From positions 1 through 64,000 of the forward strand of contig CALUXS010000008.1 in the NCBI GenBank assembly GCA_944324805.1: DNA of 64,000 nucleotides. The letters run 5' to 3'. The DNA comes from an uncultured Acholeplasmatales bacterium. GTDB taxonomy: Bacteria > Bacillota_I > Bacilli_A > Acholeplasmatales > Anaeroplasmataceae. Positions 1 to 60,840 of this stretch are shown in pieces (positions within the stretch are counted from its first letter, which is position 1; the number at the start of each line of letters is the position of its first letter). The notes beneath the pieces were generated by a model. That model worked only from the letters and a program-made list of their open reading frames with translations. It did no database searches and was not told the DNA's origin. The position numbers and the translations under genes were made by a program.

Positions 1-339
1 ATTGCGGTTGAACTTGGCTTTGAAGGCAGTGTAGAAGAGTGGCTTGAATCTTTAAAAGGACAAGACGGAAGAGAAATAGAATTTAATGTAACGCAAGATA
101 AAATAGAATGGCGTTATGTTGGAGAAACAGAGTGGAAAGAACTTATAGATTTAGAGAGCATTCAAGGAGAGAATGGAAAGTCAGCGTACGAAATTGCGGT
201 TGAACTTGGCTTTGAAGGCAGTGTAGAAGAGTGGCTTGAATCTTTAAAAGGACAAGACGGAAGAGAAATCGAATTCAATGTAACGCAAGATAAAATAGAA
301 TGGCGTTATGTTGGAGAAACAGAATGGAAATTTTTAATG
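1..339 (+). repeat. 192-bp coding tandem repeat
   Basis: Bases 1-147 recur at 193-339 with only three differences (ata/atc, ttt/ttc, gag/gaa), all synonymous. The period is exactly 192 bases, or 64 codons. More copies probably lie upstream of the window edge. Confidence 0.95.
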
Positions 340-3141
340 GAAATCCCTCACGGAAGTGAAGTGGATGAAAACATTGAATATTTACCAACAATATACTTAC
401 GTGTATGTAGTGGTGAAAAGTTAGAATTACCATCGAAAGTACTTGCATATTTAAGGGATGGAAATTATGAATATTTAGATGTTGAATGGCCTATTAATAC
501 TGTGAACACGACAATTACAGGATTAAAGGAATTTTATGGTAAGGTAAAAAAATATAATCAAACAGTAAAATGTGTTGTTAGAGTTGAAGGTTATGTTGCA
601 TCATCACTATATATTGATGGTTATGTTAATGGTAGATTACAATCTGATCCTGTTTTAGTAACAATATATAATGATAGTTTTATTCAAACAAATGAAGTCA
701 ATGCAGAAGGTTATTATCGATTTGATGATTTAAAACCGGGAGAATATTTTGTTAAAATAGATGCACTTGGATATTATACAAGTGAAATAAAAAAAATTAA
801 GGTTTCGAAGTTAACAACTGATGAAAGTAGTAAGTATAATAATGTCGGACATGTAAACTTTGATGTGGTTGCTTTACGTGAAGATGGTTATTATTATTCT
901 TGGTATCGTGATGAAAATAACACAAGTGAAACATCCGCATATATTAATGCTCCTACTGATGTTAGTTTTGTTGAAGATGGCAAAATAATTAGTGACTTAG
1001 GTTATGCGTCATTACTGCGTGAACGTTATGGTGTTGTATTAGTTAATGATGGTGAATATTGGACAACAGAAACTATTGCAAGATTTTATGAATTATATAG
1101 TAGTTTACCAACAGATGTAACAAAGGATATGTCATCGACTTGGACATTAGTAAATTATAATATCAAAAATGATATTGAATACGAATTGGTTGACGGCGTA
1201 TATAAAGTTAAAGTTTCAAGCAGAGCTATAGAAAATATTACTCCTAGAGCAGCTATTGTTGATGGTAAGGTTGGTAAGTATTTTTCTAATAGATTTTATA
1301 ATGCATTAATTCGTTTTGTTACAGATGGTGGTACAGATGAAGTTAAGTGTGAAAAAATACTGAATGAAAATTTCTTATGTTCATTTAATGTTCCTAACTA
1401 TACTGAATTAACAAAGGGAACAACAAATGAAGATGAGACTCAATTTATGGAGTTTTTACCGGAAGAAAAGTTAATGATATTAACTATGTTTGAAGAAATG
1501 CCTGAAGGTATGCATAAGATGCCAGAACTTAAATATTTAGTTCGCCGTAAAACAGGCCAAACTCATCCAATTTATCCTTCTGCTGCAGCAGTAACATGGG
1601 TATATTCTGAAGTTCCATATATTGAATTTATGGACGTAGCCTTTGCTGCAGTTCAAGGATATTATGATACAAAGCGATTAATTATTCATGAAAAAATGCA
1701 TATTTTTTATGAATATTATTTCAGTGATGAATTAAAGAAAGAATGGCAAGACATAGGTGGTTGGTATTTAAATCCTGACGACTTAGACGGTTGGTCTACA
1801 ACAAAACAAACAGAGTTTGTAAGTGCATATGGTCATGCTCATAACCCAGATGAAGATTTAGCTGAATCAGCTGCAACATATATTATTAATCCAAGTTTAT
1901 TGAAATCTCGTTCAATTAATAAATATAATTTCATTAAAAACTATATTATGAATGGAACTATTTATTTAACACAAATAAGAGAAGATTTAACATTTGAAGT
2001 TTATAATATTAATCCGGATTATATATATCCAGGTCAAATAAAAAGATTAGATGTTAAAGTTAGAGGTGACGTATTTGATGATAAAGTAGTTACTTTTGAG
2101 ATGGAATTATTTGATAATGGTGATTTTTCTGGTGCAAGTAAGGCAAGAATGCGCATTACACCTGCTGATAGAAGTTTATCACAAATGTATGATGTACAAT
2201 TTTCAAAAGCAAATGATAAGGGTACATTATTACGTGGGCAAATAACTATTTCTAAATACTCTTATTCTGGATATTGGTACACTGATCAAATTGTTATTGA
2301 AGATGAGGTTGGAAACGAAAGGTACGAAGGCTCGGCTGATTTTTCTTTAAAAATATATATTGATAATCCTTTAGCAGATTTTGAAAGCCCGGAATTAGTT
2401 AGAAATACACTTAAGTTAAGTTTAGAGGATGCAAAATTATTAGATCATCCGGGGGCTAAATATTTAGTAGTAGAATTTGATTATACCGAAAATCTAACGT
2501 TAAGAGATGCATTAGTAAGAATATATTGTAAGGATTCGACAATATCAACTTCAATCGATACTTATACAAAAGCAGAAGAAATAGATCACGATAAACAAAA
2601 AGTGAAAATGAAGATTTTTATTCCTGAACACTATCCTTCAGGTGTATATGAAGTATCACAAATTAGTTTAACAGATATTGCTAAGAACCATGCATCTTAT
2701 CATGTTAATTATGGAACTTTAGTGGATGAAGACAATCTAATTGAAATTACTAACAGTAATCCAGATAATATTGGGCCAACATTAGACACTAATGATATAA
2801 AAGTATCCGCAGTACCTTCAAATCCTACTGCACCTGATGGTGAGACATTTGTGACATTAAAACTTAAAATCAGCGATAATATTTCAGGAGCTAGAATTGG
2901 ATATGTTAAATTTTTAGATCCTCAAGGAATAATTCACGGATATTGGCTATATTTATCGGACAATAGTGGATATTATTTTGATGGTGATCCAACTGAAGTA
3001 GTTGAGTATACATTTAAGATAACTTTACCGAAAGGTAGTGCTCCAGGTATATGGGGTATATATGAAATATCAGTTACAGATTTTGCATTAAATTCTTCTG
3101 TATATGATTTTACAGAAACAATTCACTTTGAGATTAGTTAA
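1..3141 (+). CDS. Large surface protein with N-terminal tandem repeats and gluzincin-type metallopeptidase signature (5' end outside window)
   Basis: The frame is open from base 1, so the gene begins upstream; the ATG at 337 is internal. Residue numbers count from base 1. Residues 1-113 hold two copies of a 64-residue module containing GKSAYEIAVELGF and EEWLESLKGQDG, a type common in long collagen-like or fibre-like proteins of gut Firmicutes and their phages. Near residues 195-265 lies a carboxypeptidase-regulatory-like beta fold (NAEGYYRFDDLKPGEYFVKI). Residues 563-567 read HEKMH and an acidic DEDLAES follows with Glu at 622, the HExxH...E arrangement of gluzincins such as the M34/anthrax lethal factor-like group. 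The C-terminal third has repeated Ig-like segments ending in 'DxAxN' strands. I infer a secreted or wall-associated zinc protease or adhesin; the substrate is unknown. No C-terminal LPXTG or membrane anchor is visible. Confidence 0.8.
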   Translation: MAVELGFEGSVEEWLESLKGQDGREIEFNVTQDKIEWRYVGETEWKELIDLESIQGENGKSAYEIAVELGFEGSVEEWLESLKGQDGREIEFNVTQDKIEWRYVGETEWKFLMEIPHGSEVDENIEYLPTIYLRVCSGEKLELPSKVLAYLRDGNYEYLDVEWPINTVNTTITGLKEFYGKVKKYNQTVKCVVRVEGYVASSLYIDGYVNGRLQSDPVLVTIYNDSFIQTNEVNAEGYYRFDDLKPGEYFVKIDALGYYTSEIKKIKVSKLTTDESSKYNNVGHVNFDVVALREDGYYYSWYRDENNTSETSAYINAPTDVSFVEDGKIISDLGYASLLRERYGVVLVNDGEYWTTETIARFYELYSSLPTDVTKDMSSTWTLVNYNIKNDIEYELVDGVYKVKVSSRAIENITPRAAIVDGKVGKYFSNRFYNALIRFVTDGGTDEVKCEKILNENFLCSFNVPNYTELTKGTTNEDETQFMEFLPEEKLMILTMFEEMPEGMHKMPELKYLVRRKTGQTHPIYPSAAAVTWVYSEVPYIEFMDVAFAAVQGYYDTKRLIIHEKMHIFYEYYFSDELKKEWQDIGGWYLNPDDLDGWSTTKQTEFVSAYGHAHNPDEDLAESAATYIINPSLLKSRSINKYNFIKNYIMNGTIYLTQIREDLTFEVYNINPDYIYPGQIKRLDVKVRGDVFDDKVVTFEMELFDNGDFSGASKARMRITPADRSLSQMYDVQFSKANDKGTLLRGQITISKYSYSGYWYTDQIVIEDEVGNERYEGSADFSLKIYIDNPLADFESPELVRNTLKLSLEDAKLLDHPGAKYLVVEFDYTENLTLRDALVRIYCKDSTISTSIDTYTKAEEIDHDKQKVKMKIFIPEHYPSGVYEVSQISLTDIAKNHASYHVNYGTLVDEDNLIEITNSNPDNIGPTLDTNDIKVSAVPSNPTAPDGETFVTLKLKISDNISGARIGYVKFLDPQGIIHGYWLYLSDNSGYYFDGDPTEVVEYTFKITLPKGSAPGIWGIYEISVTDFALNSSVYDFTETIHFEIS

Positions 3142-26049: not shown

Positions 26050-26181
26050 GCTTTCGGGCAAAAATAGATGGCTGTGAAGTGGAAGGTTGTTGATACGCTG
26101 AGGGGCGTTGTCATACAGCGTATTGAGTTTTTCCATGGAGCAAGTCTATACAATGATTATAGGCGAAAGGAGTATTCAAAA
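26050..26181 (+). promoter_or_regulatory. Structured 5' leader of the S10 operon
   Basis: The leader of about 130 nt is more GC-rich than other gaps. ATACGCTG (26093-26100) pairs perfectly with CAGCGTAT (26116-26123) around a 15-base loop, and TGGAA (26080-26084) can pair with TTCCA (26131-26135) as an outer stem. Ribosomal leaders often bind an encoded protein to limit synthesis. Which protein would bind here is unknown. An in-frame ATG at 26068 could extend rpsJ but gives no S10-like residues and lacks a ribosome site. Confidence 0.55.
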
Positions 26182-37277: not shown

Positions 37278-37290
37278 GTTTTTCTGTCTA

Positions 37291-37446
37291 TTTAACTATT
37301 AATTTCGTCGCACAAATAAATTAATAGTTAAATTTGATGGTTTACCGTCTTTTGTTTCAATAACAAAAGGCGGAGAACTATTACTTATATTAAAATAATA
37401 TAATTGCTCATTATTTGGTGGTAGATAATGAGGTTAGATTTACCAC
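37291..37446 (+). promoter_or_regulatory. Three-hairpin region between adk and infA
   Basis: The 190-base gap has three stems: a perfect 15-bp stem (37291-37305 with 37318-37332), a 12-bp stem with wobbles (37345-37356 with 37362-37373) and an 8-bp stem (37407-37414 with 37425-37432). GTGGTA (37418-37423) can instead pair with TACCAC (37441-37446), which excludes the third stem. A TATAAT is at 37399-37404 without a good -35. No terminator-like T run follows. It may be a regulatory leader, a processing site, or the scar of a lost map gene. Confidence 0.5.
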
Positions 37447-37467
37447 AAGAAACTATAGGAGGATCAA

Positions 37468-37689
37468 ATGGCAAAAAAAGAAGATGTCATTGAGCTTGAG
37501 GGCACAGTATTAGATGTTTTACCTAACACTCAGTTTATCGTTAAATTAGAAAACGATCATCAAGTTTTAGCCCACGTTTCTGGTAAAATCCGCATGAATA
37601 ACATACGCATTTTACCAGGTGATAAGGTAACAGTAGAGTTATCAACATATGATTTAACACGTGGAAGAATCACTTATAGACATAAGTAA
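37468..37689 (+). CDS. infA: Translation initiation factor IF-1
   Basis: The 73-residue OB-fold factor occupies the A site during initiation. [18 protein letters not shown] and [20 protein letters not shown] are typical. TAGGAGG lies before the ATG. Confidence 0.97.
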
Positions 37690-45245: not shown

Positions 45246-45278
45246 TATAAAAGAATAAATAGGTATCTAAGTAAAATG

Positions 45279-45358
45279 AAAAAACTGATGATAAACTAAA
45301 GAGATGTCTTAATGCTATAATCATTATGGGCGTATTATTAGAGTATCGTCAGTTTTTT
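45279..45358 (+). terminator. Probable terminator with a long loop
   Basis: AAAAAACTGATGAT (45279-45292) pairs with ATCGTCAGTTTTTT (45345-45358), with one G-U, across a 52-base loop. A T run ends it. The loop may hold further structure, so it could be a small RNA end. Confidence 0.5.
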
Positions 45359-45431
45359 TATATATTTATAAATTTAGAAGTATAAATTATTATTGTCTGA
45401 CATGACTAATAATTATGCAACTTTAAGTAGC

Positions 45432-45460
45432 GTGACATTTAGTATTTCTACCATTATAAT
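45432..45460 (+). promoter_or_regulatory. Promoter of the XRE/acidic-repeat pair
   Basis: GTGACA (45432-45437) and TATAAT (45455-45460) are 17 bases apart; AAGGAGGAG and the GTG start follow. TGACAT occurs at 45399 and 45433 and could be a regulator site. Confidence 0.75.
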
Positions 45461-45483
45461 AAAGGCTGTAAGGAGGAGATAAA

Positions 45484-45930
45484 GTGATTGATTTTGTAAA
45501 GGTCGGAGAAAAAATTTCTAAATACCGTAAGCAAAACAATTTAACACAAGATGATATTGCCATAAAATTATTTGTCTCCCGTCAGTTAGTTTCTAAATGG
45601 GAAAATGGAACTGGAATTCCTTCTATTGATTCCTTAATAGAACTAGCAAAACTCTTTCATATAACTTTTGAAGAGTTACTTTGTTTAAATGAGGAAACAA
45701 ATTTAGACGAAAACAACATATTTAATGGTCGCGAACGTTTGTATGTTGTGCAAAGTATTATTGATGGTAGCATAAAGGTTAATATCCCTGAAGTGTTTTA
45801 CCAATTTTCCTCATTAGAAAGAATGATGGTTTTAAAGGCAATTAGAGAACATAGATTAGATACTAATCTAGATGAGCTCTATCCTAAGTTAACTCCAGGT
45901 GAGCAAGTATATTTAAGAAAGGATGATTAA
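45484..45930 (+). CDS. XRE-family helix-turn-helix regulator
   Basis: The 148-residue protein starts at GTG after AAGGAGGAG. Residues 8-62 are a lambda repressor-type HTH (ISKYRKQNNLTQDDIAIKLF, then SRQLVSKWENG). The C-terminal half is short and helical with no known sensor domain. It ends 2 bases before the acidic-repeat gene, so the two are one unit. Confidence 0.88.
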   Translation: MIDFVKVGEKISKYRKQNNLTQDDIAIKLFVSRQLVSKWENGTGIPSIDSLIELAKLFHITFEELLCLNEETNLDENNIFNGRERLYVVQSIIDGSIKVNIPEVFYQFSSLERMMVLKAIREHRLDTNLDELYPKLTPGEQVYLRKDD

Positions 45931-57890: not shown

Positions 57891-57929
57891 AAAAAACAAA
57901 GTACTTTTACGTACTTTGTTTTTTTATTA
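57891..57929. terminator. Bidirectional terminator between convergent genes
   Basis: AAAAAACAAAGTAC (57891-57904) pairs with GTACTTTGTTTTTT (57911-57924) around a six-base loop. T runs follow on both strands. Confidence 0.95.
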
Positions 57930-59111
57930 TTTTACTAGTGAAGCTTCAGCAAATGCAAGTAAGAAAGGACCTATAGCTTTTCCATCGTCATTTACTACTT
58001 TACAACGAACGTACATTTCATAAGTTCCAACATATGCATCAGTTTTTGATGCAGATAAACCAGCACCAATACAAATTCCACCTAGTGTTAAATTACCATT
58101 TTCATCACGTTTGAAATATGTATTACAAGTACCCTCTAGAATGCTTAATCCGATTTCTTGATATTTTTTATCTAATGCACCAAGTCTAACTGCTTTTAAG
58201 ATAGTATAGGCAATCATTAATGTACCTGATGTTTCAACATAGTTTTCTTCCTTTTCAGGCATATTAGGAACTTGCCAGAACATTTTTGTTTTAGGATCTA
58301 AGTATATAAGAAGTCCGTCAATTGTCTTTTGAATTAAAGGTTTAATCTTATTACGATATTTTTCTTCCTCCATAATTTCATATACATCAACTAGAGCCAT
58401 TTCATACCATCCACATGCACGTAACCACACGATTGGTGAATGACCATTTTCCTTATTAGCCCAAATCATTCTTTCTTCAGGATCTTCAAATTGTCCATCA
58501 TAGCCATGAACCATTAGTTTTTTATCATCTTCCCAAGTTAAGTCGAAGCAATTTTGTAATTGATATAAAATATCATAATAGCTCATTTTGTCTTCATAAC
58601 GCTTTGTATATTCGGCAAAGTATGGTTGAATCATGTATAATCCATCTAGCCAGATTTGATTATAATATTTAATTTTATGCCAGAAATTACCTCTAATGCG
58701 TGGAATTTTTCTAACTTGCTCATTCATAAAATATTCGATAGCTTTACGATATTTTTCTTTTTTTGTTTTATCATAAAGTGGAAATAACACTTTAGCCATA
58801 TTACATGGATCAGAGTCACGTCCTGTTTCAGTATATTCATTATAGTTGTTATAGTAATAAACTTTAACTCTACCATCTTCAGGAACAATTTGATCGATAA
58901 AGTTTTCTACATAATTAAAAATTCTTTCATCTTTAGTTACTTGATAGTAACCCATTAAGCCAACCATCATACAACCATCAATATAAGTCCAACCAGGTTT
59001 TTTAAGTCCGATTAAAACCTCTTTATTCCATAATGGTTTTTCAACTGTTGAATTATCTAGAAGATAATCAATGTATTCCTTGAAATTTTTTTGCAACTCG
59101 TTACTAAGCAT
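57927..59111 (-). CDS. GH105 unsaturated rhamnogalacturonyl/uronyl hydrolase
   Basis: The 394-residue enzyme is an (alpha/alpha)6 barrel of the YteR/GH105 family that hydrates and opens the unsaturated uronate end of pectin or related oligosaccharides. The catalytic Asp156 lies in QIWLDGLYM, and GHSPIVWLRACGWYEMAL is also typical. No signal peptide is seen, so it is cytoplasmic and acts on imported oligosaccharides. GAGG lies before the ATG. Its promoter is the first copy of the duplicated element upstream. It fits the uronate pathway with GH88 and KduD. Confidence 0.9.
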   Translation of the reverse strand: MLSNELQKNFKEYIDYLLDNSTVEKPLWNKEVLIGLKKPGWTYIDGCMMVGLMGYYQVTKDERIFNYVENFIDQIVPEDGRVKVYYYNNYNEYTETGRDSDPCNMAKVLFPLYDKTKKEKYRKAIEYFMNEQVRKIPRIRGNFWHKIKYYNQIWLDGLYMIQPYFAEYTKRYEDKMSYYDILYQLQNCFDLTWEDDKKLMVHGYDGQFEDPEERMIWANKENGHSPIVWLRACGWYEMALVDVYEIMEEEKYRNKIKPLIQKTIDGLLIYLDPKTKMFWQVPNMPEKEENYVETSGTLMIAYTILKAVRLGALDKKYQEIGLSILEGTCNTYFKRDENGNLTLGGICIGAGLSASKTDAYVGTYEMYVRCKVVNDDGKAIGPFLLAFAEASLVK

Positions 59112-59143
59112 TCTAATATCCTCTTTTCTATAAATTTAACTAT

Positions 59144-59172
59144 ATGATAGCGCTTTACTTTAATAAAGTCAA
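59144..59172 (-). promoter_or_regulatory. GH105 promoter and operator, copy 1
   Basis: On the minus strand TTGACT (plus 59167-59172) and TATCAT (plus 59144-59149) are 17 bases apart. The operator TAAAGCGCTATCA overlaps the spacer and -10, a repression layout for a LacI/CcpA-type regulator. Confidence 0.75.
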
Positions 59173-59223
59173 CAATAAATTCGTAATAATGTATAAAGTT
59201 TATAATTGTGAACAAAAATACAT

Positions 59224-59457
59224 AATAAAAAGAGCTTATAAAAAGCTCTTTTTATGTTTACTGACAAATTGGGGGAATGTCAGTAAAAAGGGAAAAGAAA
59301 AAGTATGATTCACTATTATTATGGTAAATCAGAAAAAAGACCAAACATGCGAACCCTATACAAATCGCATATCAGTGAATCAAAATCCTCTAGAATTTGG
59401 GGGATTACTAGAGAATTTGCAAGATAAGTAATGGTTCCTTCGCCAAAATTATCATGC
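59224..59457 (-). ncRNA. Candidate small regulatory RNA with two C-rich hairpin loops
   Basis: No ORF fits this non-coding region, which starts at a promoter and ends at a terminator, about 234 nt on the minus strand. In transcript order there is a CTCTAG/CTAGAG stem (plus 59388-59413) with loop TAATCCCCCAAATT. Next comes an outer GATTCACT-type stem (59307-59314 with 59374-59381) holding ATGCGA/TCGCAT (59347-59370). Then a perfect 10-bp stem (59257-59266 with 59278-59287) has loop TTCCCCCAATT, followed by the terminator. The two loops share UCCCCCAA, which can pair with purine-rich ribosome sites, as in C-rich-loop sRNAs of Firmicutes. It could instead be an attenuated leader of GH105. I match it to no known family. 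Confidence 0.65.
59227..59253 (-). terminator. Terminator of the candidate small RNA
   Basis: AAAAAGAGCTT (59227-59237) pairs with AAGCTCTTTTT (59243-59253) around a five-base loop. Read on the minus strand it ends CTCTTTTTATT. Confidence 0.9.
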
Positions 59458-59463
59458 GAGTAT

Positions 59464-59492
59464 ATGATAACGCTTTTAAAAAATAATGTCAA
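59464..59492 (-). promoter_or_regulatory. Promoter and operator of the candidate small RNA, copy 2
   Basis: TTGACA (minus; plus 59487-59492) and TATCAT (plus 59464-59469) are 17 bases apart, close to consensus. The operator TAAAAGCGTTATCA lies over the spacer and -10, as in copy 1. Confidence 0.75.
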
Positions 59493-59588
59493 TACTAAAT
59501 TCGTAATAATGTATAAAGTTTATAATTATGAACACAAAATAATACAAATACATATATATGAACAAAATGTTCAATTATGAATTAAATG

Positions 59589-59617
59589 TTGAAAGAAAAC
59601 GCTTTTTATGATAATCT
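59589..59617 (+). promoter_or_regulatory. GH88 promoter and operator
   Basis: TTGAAA (59589-59594) and TAATCT (59612-59617) are 17 bases apart. GAAAACGCTTTTTAT (59595-59609) fills the spacer and is the reverse complement of the shared operator. Confidence 0.65.
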
Positions 59618-59643
59618 TTAATATAGAAAGAAGGTTAAAGCAA

Positions 59644-60840
59644 ATGGTACTAGAAAAAGAAAGATTTATGCAAAAGTCTAAAATAACTAAAGAAGAGGCT
59701 AAAGATTTATTATTAGAGGTACGAAATAAAATAGATAAGCTAATTGAAAAATTTGGCAATAATTTTATACATACATGCAGTCAAAGTGGAAAATATATTT
59801 TGGCAGATGATTTTGAATGGACAAAAGGATTTTATACAGGTATTTTATGGTATTTATATAAATTTACTGGTGATAAAAAATATTTTGAAATTGCAGATTG
59901 GCAAACGAATGAATTACTTAAGAAGGCAAGACTTGGCCATAATGGAATTCAAAATCATGATGCAGGATTTTTGTATTCATTATCTAGTGTTGCAGGATAT
60001 AAGGTTACAGGAGACTCTAAATATTTAGAGGGTGCTAGATTAGCCGCCAAAACTCTTAGCGAAAGGTTCATACCAAATTGTGGTGTTATTCAAGCTTGGG
60101 GAAAAATGAATGAGAAAAATATTAATAGTGGAAGAATAATTATTGATACTTGGATGAATTTACCACTTTTATCATATGTTGGGAATTTAGAGAATAATTC
60201 AAATTATCAGGAAATTGTTAGAAGTCATTTAGAAAAATCACTTAAAACATTAGTTAGAAAAGATTATACAACGTATCATACTTATTATTTTGATACAAAT
60301 AGTGGTGTTTCATTATATGGTAAAACACACCAAGGTAAAAATGATGAATCAATGTGGGCAAGAGGTCAATCATGGGGAATTTATGGTTTACCTTTGAATT
60401 ACAAATATGATCAAACAAAGGATAGTTATTTAAAAGTGGCAAAAAATTTATTGGATGTCTTTTTAAATAAGCTACCTAGTGATTTAGTATGTCCTTGGGA
60501 TTTTGATTTTTCTGATTATAAGGATGTAACAAAAGATGCAGGAACGATGCCAATAGTTGCACTTGGTATTTTAGAGTTATTAAAATACGATAATGTATTT
60601 ACTACTGAAGAAAGAAAAGATTATGAATTAATTGCTCATAACCTAATAAGAGCTTTAATAGATAATGATTATATATCATTTAATAATGCTTTTTGGGAGG
60701 ATGGCTTAGTAAGACATTCTGTTTACTCACACAATATAAATTGCCGTGGAGTTAATGAGTTTTGCTTATGGGGAGATTATTTCTATGTGGAATTTTTAAT
60801 GAAAATATATGAGGAGGATGAAGCAATAAGCTTCTGGTAA
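59644..60840 (+). CDS. GH88 unsaturated glucuronyl hydrolase
   Basis: The 398-residue cytoplasmic enzyme cleaves unsaturated glucuronate from lyase products of hyaluronan, chondroitin or related chains. Asp106 in NHDAGF and Asp168 in DTWMNLP match the two catalytic aspartates of UGL. DDFEWTKGFYTGILWYLY, ARGQSWGIYGL and DAGTMPIVALGIL are also typical. I use ATG 59644, nine bases after AGAAGG; an ATG at 59608 lies in the promoter. It starts the operon with the MATE transporter and KduD. Confidence 0.93.
   Translation: MVLEKERFMQKSKITKEEAKDLLLEVRNKIDKLIEKFGNNFIHTCSQSGKYILADDFEWTKGFYTGILWYLYKFTGDKKYFEIADWQTNELLKKARLGHNGIQNHDAGFLYSLSSVAGYKVTGDSKYLEGARLAAKTLSERFIPNCGVIQAWGKMNEKNINSGRIIIDTWMNLPLLSYVGNLENNSNYQEIVRSHLEKSLKTLVRKDYTTYHTYYFDTNSGVSLYGKTHQGKNDESMWARGQSWGIYGLPLNYKYDQTKDSYLKVAKNLLDVFLNKLPSDLVCPWDFDFSDYKDVTKDAGTMPIVALGILELLKYDNVFTTEERKDYELIAHNLIRALIDNDYISFNNAFWEDGLVRHSVYSHNINCRGVNEFCLWGDYFYVEFLMKIYEEDEAISFW

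Follow-up and report, generated by a model that had tools for sequence, protein, structure and literature searches.

A candidate orphan small RNA with twin C-rich loops and a duplicated GH105 promoter in an uncultured relative of Acholeplasma

This locus, which belongs to an uncultured lineage related to Acholeplasma and the mollicutes, raises the question of what lies between two divergent GH105-type (Glyco_hydro_88) genes that stand about 500 bases apart. The gap is bounded by a minus-strand gene for a GH105-type unsaturated uronyl hydrolase (Pfam Glyco_hydro_88; 57927..59111, E 3.4e-62) and by a second, divergent Glyco_hydro_88-family hydrolase gene on the plus strand (59608..60840, E 3.1e-15), of which the ATG at 59644 is a possible start. 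GH105 orthologues are present across the family, the nearest named relatives by this protein being MAGs labelled Acholeplasmatales or Mollicutes. An initial annotation had placed a complete transcription unit on the minus strand of the gap, and its sequence signals were borne out: a promoter, about 235 nt and the sole local terminator together define a candidate small RNA (sRNA) of about 232-238 nt at 59220..59457 of the window, that is, of the whole 64,000-nucleotide stretch analysed.

The promoter, TTGACA-N17-TATCAT on the minus strand at 59464..59492, was found where it had been annotated, with 11/12 matches, and was the best of seven promoter-like sites found. Since 9.3 such sites are expected by chance, the weight of this promoter lies in its near-perfect match and in the fact that it duplicates the GH105 promoter. 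The latter (TTGACT-N17-TATCAT, minus strand, 59144..59172) lies 3' of the sRNA terminator. The duplication itself, also claimed earlier, was confirmed: the two promoter regions can be aligned over ~75 nt in all, and each promoter is preceded on its 5' side by a 28-bp regulatory element, TATAAACTTTATACATTATTACGAATTT, whose upstream (59497..59524) and downstream (59177..59204) minus-strand copies are identical over 28 bases and are the only copies in the 1.83-Mb genome at up to three mismatches. Across each -10 lies a AAAGCGYTATCATA box (AAAAGCGTTATCATAT in the sRNA promoter and AAAGCGCTATCATA in the GH105 promoter), a putative operator resembling a cre or LacI-type site. The top CcpA-like protein of the genome, encoded at G000:C2:130582, scored 277 bits, under the CcpA family cut-off of 442.

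At the other end of the unit, the intrinsic terminator had been described as 11 bp at 59227-59253; its presence was upheld by the terminator scan, although it actually comprises 13 bp on the minus strand at 59225..59255 and is near-symmetrical, folding on the plus strand too. It was the single terminator detected in the 1.2 kb scanned (58.8-60.0 kb), where 0.2 would be expected, and it lies upstream of the GH105 start at a distance of 114 nt. These sequence signals give good support to a discrete, terminator-bounded candidate sRNA gene driven by a duplicated GH105 promoter.

The predicted fold of the 238-nt RNA reaches -66.6 kcal/mol compared with -38.2 +/- 4.2 kcal/mol in dinucleotide shuffles (z -6.85), and with the first hairpin left out (59226-59419) the z-score is -8.07. 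When the window's intergenic DNA was scanned for folding in 140 segments, one from the candidate sRNA ranked first. The z-score alone is no proof of an sRNA, since the terminator hairpin contributes to it and nearly equal values occur at two other places in the window. Four hairpins had been annotated; the fold stands, with the number corrected to five structural elements including the terminator. From the 5' side of the minus strand, the predicted structure comprises a hairpin with loop A (UAAUCCCCCAAAUU; 59383..59418, with UCCCCCAA at 59397-59404), a branched long hairpin between both C-rich loops, seen in the fold only (59305..59382), an 18-nt C/U-rich linker (UACUUUUUCUUUUCCCUU; 59288..59305) with an unpaired probability of at least 0.97, which is a possible additional pairing region, and a hairpin with loop B (UUCCCCCAAUU; 59258..59287, with UCCCCCAA at 59269-59276).

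The stems carrying the two loops are unlike: that of loop B has the 10 bp originally given, while that of loop A has 11 bp plus three inner bp in place of 6 bp. The loops are near-identical, so the earlier reading of nearly the same loop on unrelated stems was correct, UCCCCCAA being exposed on two different stems. In both loops the C5AA core is predicted to be unpaired with a probability of 0.98-1.0. Loop A as a whole has the same unpaired probability (0.98-1.0) except at its first U (0.47), with an opening energy of 0.5 kcal/mol; that of loop B is 0.02 kcal/mol. The predicted fold thus shows the class feature of C-rich-loop sRNAs, namely at least two stable stems, each with an open C4-C6 loop at its tip. 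The 1.83-Mb genome contains 20 copies of UCCCCCAA in all, those outside the two loops lying mostly within coding frames.

The candidate had not been recognised as a known sRNA when annotated, and the Rfam covariance search then suggested agrees: no Rfam 15 family, bacterial sRNAs and riboswitches included, reached the gathering cut-off, the best sub-threshold matches being chance ones, chiefly to the terminator hairpin. No homologue was found by DNA search of 60 relatives, which returned just short matches to the terminator and to A+T-rich pieces, or with a single-sequence covariance model in 55 family genomes, where a 30-nt terminator match and weak ones were obtained. The twin-loop pattern likewise identified no homologue among 160 genomes of the order; it was present in three of them, the other two having unrelated sequence between the motifs. 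Phage and plasmid collections and an exact scan of viral contigs gave no match, and a DNA search showed no second copy elsewhere in the genome. Given that no homologue emerged from the relatives, Rfam and the phage, plasmid and viral sequences searched, the candidate sRNA is regarded as an orphan. In three sister species of the same genus (G003, G006 and G007), the GH105 orthologue is again divergent from a second gene, the gap being short and having, of the two promoters, just the proximal one, preceded by related elements, and no such RNA. If the sRNA is real, its absence from the same locus of close relatives would allow its origin to be bracketed.

Orphan loci are often transient, and the stretch could be structured DNA left between divergent genes by promoter duplication or insertion, whether transcribed or silent, with no selected role. 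Its absence from all the relatives searched and the lack of a duplicate elsewhere in the genome are in keeping with this explanation, which is nevertheless considered unlikely: a strong promoter, a terminator, a z-score near -8 and twin open C5 loops, nearly alike on unlike stems, amount to an excess of order for a neutral spacer, and the two copies of the 28-bp element show no difference though the promoter spacer has diverged.

Distinctly unlikely is a second alternative, in which the RNA is a prematurely terminated 5' leader of GH105, transcribed from the upstream promoter, attenuated at the terminator and subject to regulated read-through. The shared strand, the position of the terminator 5' of the GH105 start and the tandem arrangement of two promoters of one origin would all suit such a leader. 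On the other hand, a complete GH105 promoter-like site lies downstream of the terminator; as GH105 would thus have its own promoter past the terminator, read-through would be unnecessary and the leader explanation is weakened. Inspection of the fold showed no clear antiterminator pairing, the sister species have the proximal promoter only, and no riboswitch or leader family of Rfam was matched.

That the binding partner of the twin loops is a protein and not an mRNA, the RNA serving as a sponge or scaffold, is very unlikely. Protein-titrating RNAs do have this layout, with nearly the same loop presented twice from different stems, and if the plus strand were transcribed the loops would read GGGGGA in a CsrA-like manner; that strand also folds well and the terminator is near-symmetrical. 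Against this reading, both the strong promoter and the called terminator belong to the minus strand.

The annotation of the unit as having no ORF was judged fair: its longest open frame, of ~45 codons, lacks a normal start codon close to where it opens, and otherwise there is a leaderless 15-codon ATG frame (MIILAKEPLLILQIL, 15 residues). A short mRNA for this peptide, or for the longer frame from a non-standard start, is highly improbable, for while 2 nt separate the ATG from the predicted start of the transcript and the ~45-codon frame is closed by four stops, no normal start codon has a preceding ribosome site, 15 open codons are frequent by chance in A+T-rich DNA, and the long frame tracks the stems and includes CCC, CGC, AGG and CTG codons, judged (not computed) to be rare here.

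There remains the explanation considered best, to which about an even chance is given: a species-specific sRNA of ~235 nt, co-induced with GH105, that would repress mRNAs with GGGGG Shine-Dalgarno (SD) sites in trans through its C5 loops. The RNA would be transcribed independently from its own promoter and, under sugar control, would be co-induced with the GH105 pectin-oligosaccharide hydrolase, as one regulated promoter, present in two copies, would serve both (the 28-bp element together with the cre/LacI-type box across the -10). Its two exposed C5 loops, aided by the C/U-rich linker, may pair with GGGGG-type SD sites and so keep ribosomes from loading onto some of the mRNAs, in particular those of other pectin- and glycan-degradation genes. 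Repression is the direction of effect that such pairing suggests, and enzyme synthesis would then be trimmed or re-ordered after induction of the locus. An SD-masking role is plausible from the predicted loops, and the present analysis newly suggests that the coupling is specifically to pectin genes.

C-rich loops are used in this way by several sRNAs elsewhere. The 6C sRNA of M. tuberculosis reportedly acts through C-rich loops against G-tracts. In Mycobacterium abscessus, B11 has two C-rich loops, either of which is sufficient, and represses a leader containing six G (PMC10470900). The candidate sRNA has two loops as B11 does and resembles both B11 and 6C in the setting of C-rich loops against G-tracts, although it belongs to another phylum, has other stems and has no Rfam match. 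The Xanthomonas sRNA sX13, which is Hfq-independent, carries several apical C-rich loops on stable stems and represses mRNAs that bear G-rich motifs close to the start codon, in some cases at the ribosome site (PMC3771888). C-rich loops on stable stems are likewise predicted here; sX13 differs in its phylum, in having virulence and motility genes among its targets and in having no promoter tie to a sugar locus, and no Rfam family is common to the two. In Staphylococcus aureus, C-rich motifs complementary to the SD sequence are found in RNAIII and the Rsa sRNAs, among which RsaI (144 nt, conserved across its family) is repressed by CcpA and controls sugar metabolism (PMC8334554, PMC2837412). 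The cre-like box over the -10 of the candidate suggests, by analogy, similar control; unlike RsaI, the candidate is an orphan that matches no family. GibS of Bacteroides thetaiotaomicron is a sugar-responsive gut sRNA that acts on carbohydrate genes near their start codons, pairs via an unstructured 5' end and is conserved in its genus (PMC7366714). A gut-bacterial, sugar-linked action on carbohydrate genes near start codons is also what is proposed here, with C-rich loops instead of an unstructured 5' end and, in contrast to GibS, with no conservation in the genus. Membership of any family is not claimed, and by analogy the resemblance is a functional one alone: the candidate is probably an orphan trans-acting sRNA, in no known family, that would act like sX13, B11, 6C and RNAIII.

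The proposed targets were sought genome-wide as GGGGG followed 3-12 nt on by ATG, a pattern found 57 times compared with 31 for the reversed pattern. Translation of the 57 sites left 27 plausible gene starts, and 25 after two within longer frames were dropped. The two rejected were L107 and L109, the latter an esterase gene with 10 bp of complementarity to loop B; in both, the GGGGG lies within a longer open frame. Perfect 8-nt TTGGGGGA matches elsewhere were excluded as targets because they are mostly inside genes.

Six of the 25 starts belong to glycan-degradation genes, encoding a GH28 polygalacturonase-like protein, a PelX-like pectate lyase (frameshifted in the assembly), a second GH105 (GH105 no. 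2), a rhamnogalacturonan-acetylesterase-like GDSL protein, a GH36 alpha-galactosidase and a GH65-like protein; the other starts include ABC permeases and an IclR regulator of the sRNA's own contig. Of 32 GGGGG starts from two RNA-less sister species, a partial sample under a similar filter in which three were judged from sequence and not scanned, none was that of a glycan hydrolase, lyase or esterase, two CBM20-domain genes and two glycosyltransferases not being counted as glycan-degrading. The difference (6/25 vs 0/32) has a Fisher p of 0.005, or 0.013 once the GH65-like gene is excluded, both being post hoc values that take no account of whole-genome base rates of glycan genes. A background sample of AGGAGG-type SD sites from contig 1 was kept out of the statistics, coming from a single housekeeping-rich region. 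Nine contiguous bp with loop B (UGGGGGAAU) are possible at four starts, those of the GH28, pectate lyase and GH65-like genes and of one unknown small protein. The leaders of the GH28, GH65-like and GH105 no. 2 genes are at G000:C5:136825, C11:49077 and C10:18992, respectively.

The sister orthologues of the GH28, GH65-like and GH105 no. 2 genes have other ribosome sites, mostly of GGAGG or GAGG type, which is partly expected since the genes were selected here for having GGGGG. Genome-wide enrichment of GGGGG sites over the sisters was rejected: their density, 31 per Mb, falls within the 23-46 per Mb of seven sister genomes, which argues against a global co-evolution of such sites with the RNA. 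Taken as a whole, the target evidence from sequence is suggestive, post hoc and modest. The loops had been proposed to pair with purine-rich ribosome sites; of this, the open loops and the GGGGG SD sites, pectin genes included, held good, and the pairing is plausible on a post hoc basis. The coupling to translation of other genes proposed with it is now narrowed to other glycan-degradation genes, where it may apply.

Three further observations concern individual genes. The GGGGG ribosome site of the IclR regulator (G000:C8:85537-85551, L101) is common to its counterpart L255 in G003 and needs no sRNA as its explanation, being present also in that RNA-less sister. The PelX-like gene (L138, G000:C5:105500-108100; 3-1328, minus strand) is split into frames of 104 and 325 aa and is either a pseudogene or an assembly error. 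In a citrate-transporter-family gene, a GGGGG ribosome site is conserved in two genus members (L256 in G003:C24 and L108 in G000:C1).

A doubtful extension of the preferred species-specific sRNA reading is that the sRNA is newborn and species-restricted, having acquired the promoter of the pectin locus through tandem duplication, and that it pairs with mRNAs of pectinase genes in which the SD sites have drifted to GGGGGAAU. If so, one glycan signal would set both GH105 transcription and the translation of unlinked pectinase genes in a mollicute relative. If the candidate is real, pectin use in this uncultured gut lineage, a relative of Acholeplasma, would have an sRNA built into its control; a limited literature search retrieved no pectin-use sRNA there. 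The candidate would then also be a clean case of an sRNA gene arising together with promoter duplication.

Elsewhere in the window, the plus strand at 37278-37450 is strongly folded (z -7.1), with two long hairpins between adk and a gene starting at 37468 that looks like infA; this stretch, with zero Rfam matches, may be the leader of an infA/ribosomal-protein operon. Another strongly folded plus-strand stretch (45246-45480, z -6.9), also with zero Rfam matches, precedes a small helix-turn-helix gene at 45484; one hairpin of the stretch, with a T-run at the end, may terminate transcription of the gene on its upstream side. Outside the window, a gene with a ThsA-like macro domain of Thoeris type (L126, G000:C3:107014) is a possible anti-phage defence gene. 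An S10-Clostridia ribosomal protein leader (RF03136) was recognised on the plus strand of the window at 26066-26166, with a score slightly over the gathering threshold.
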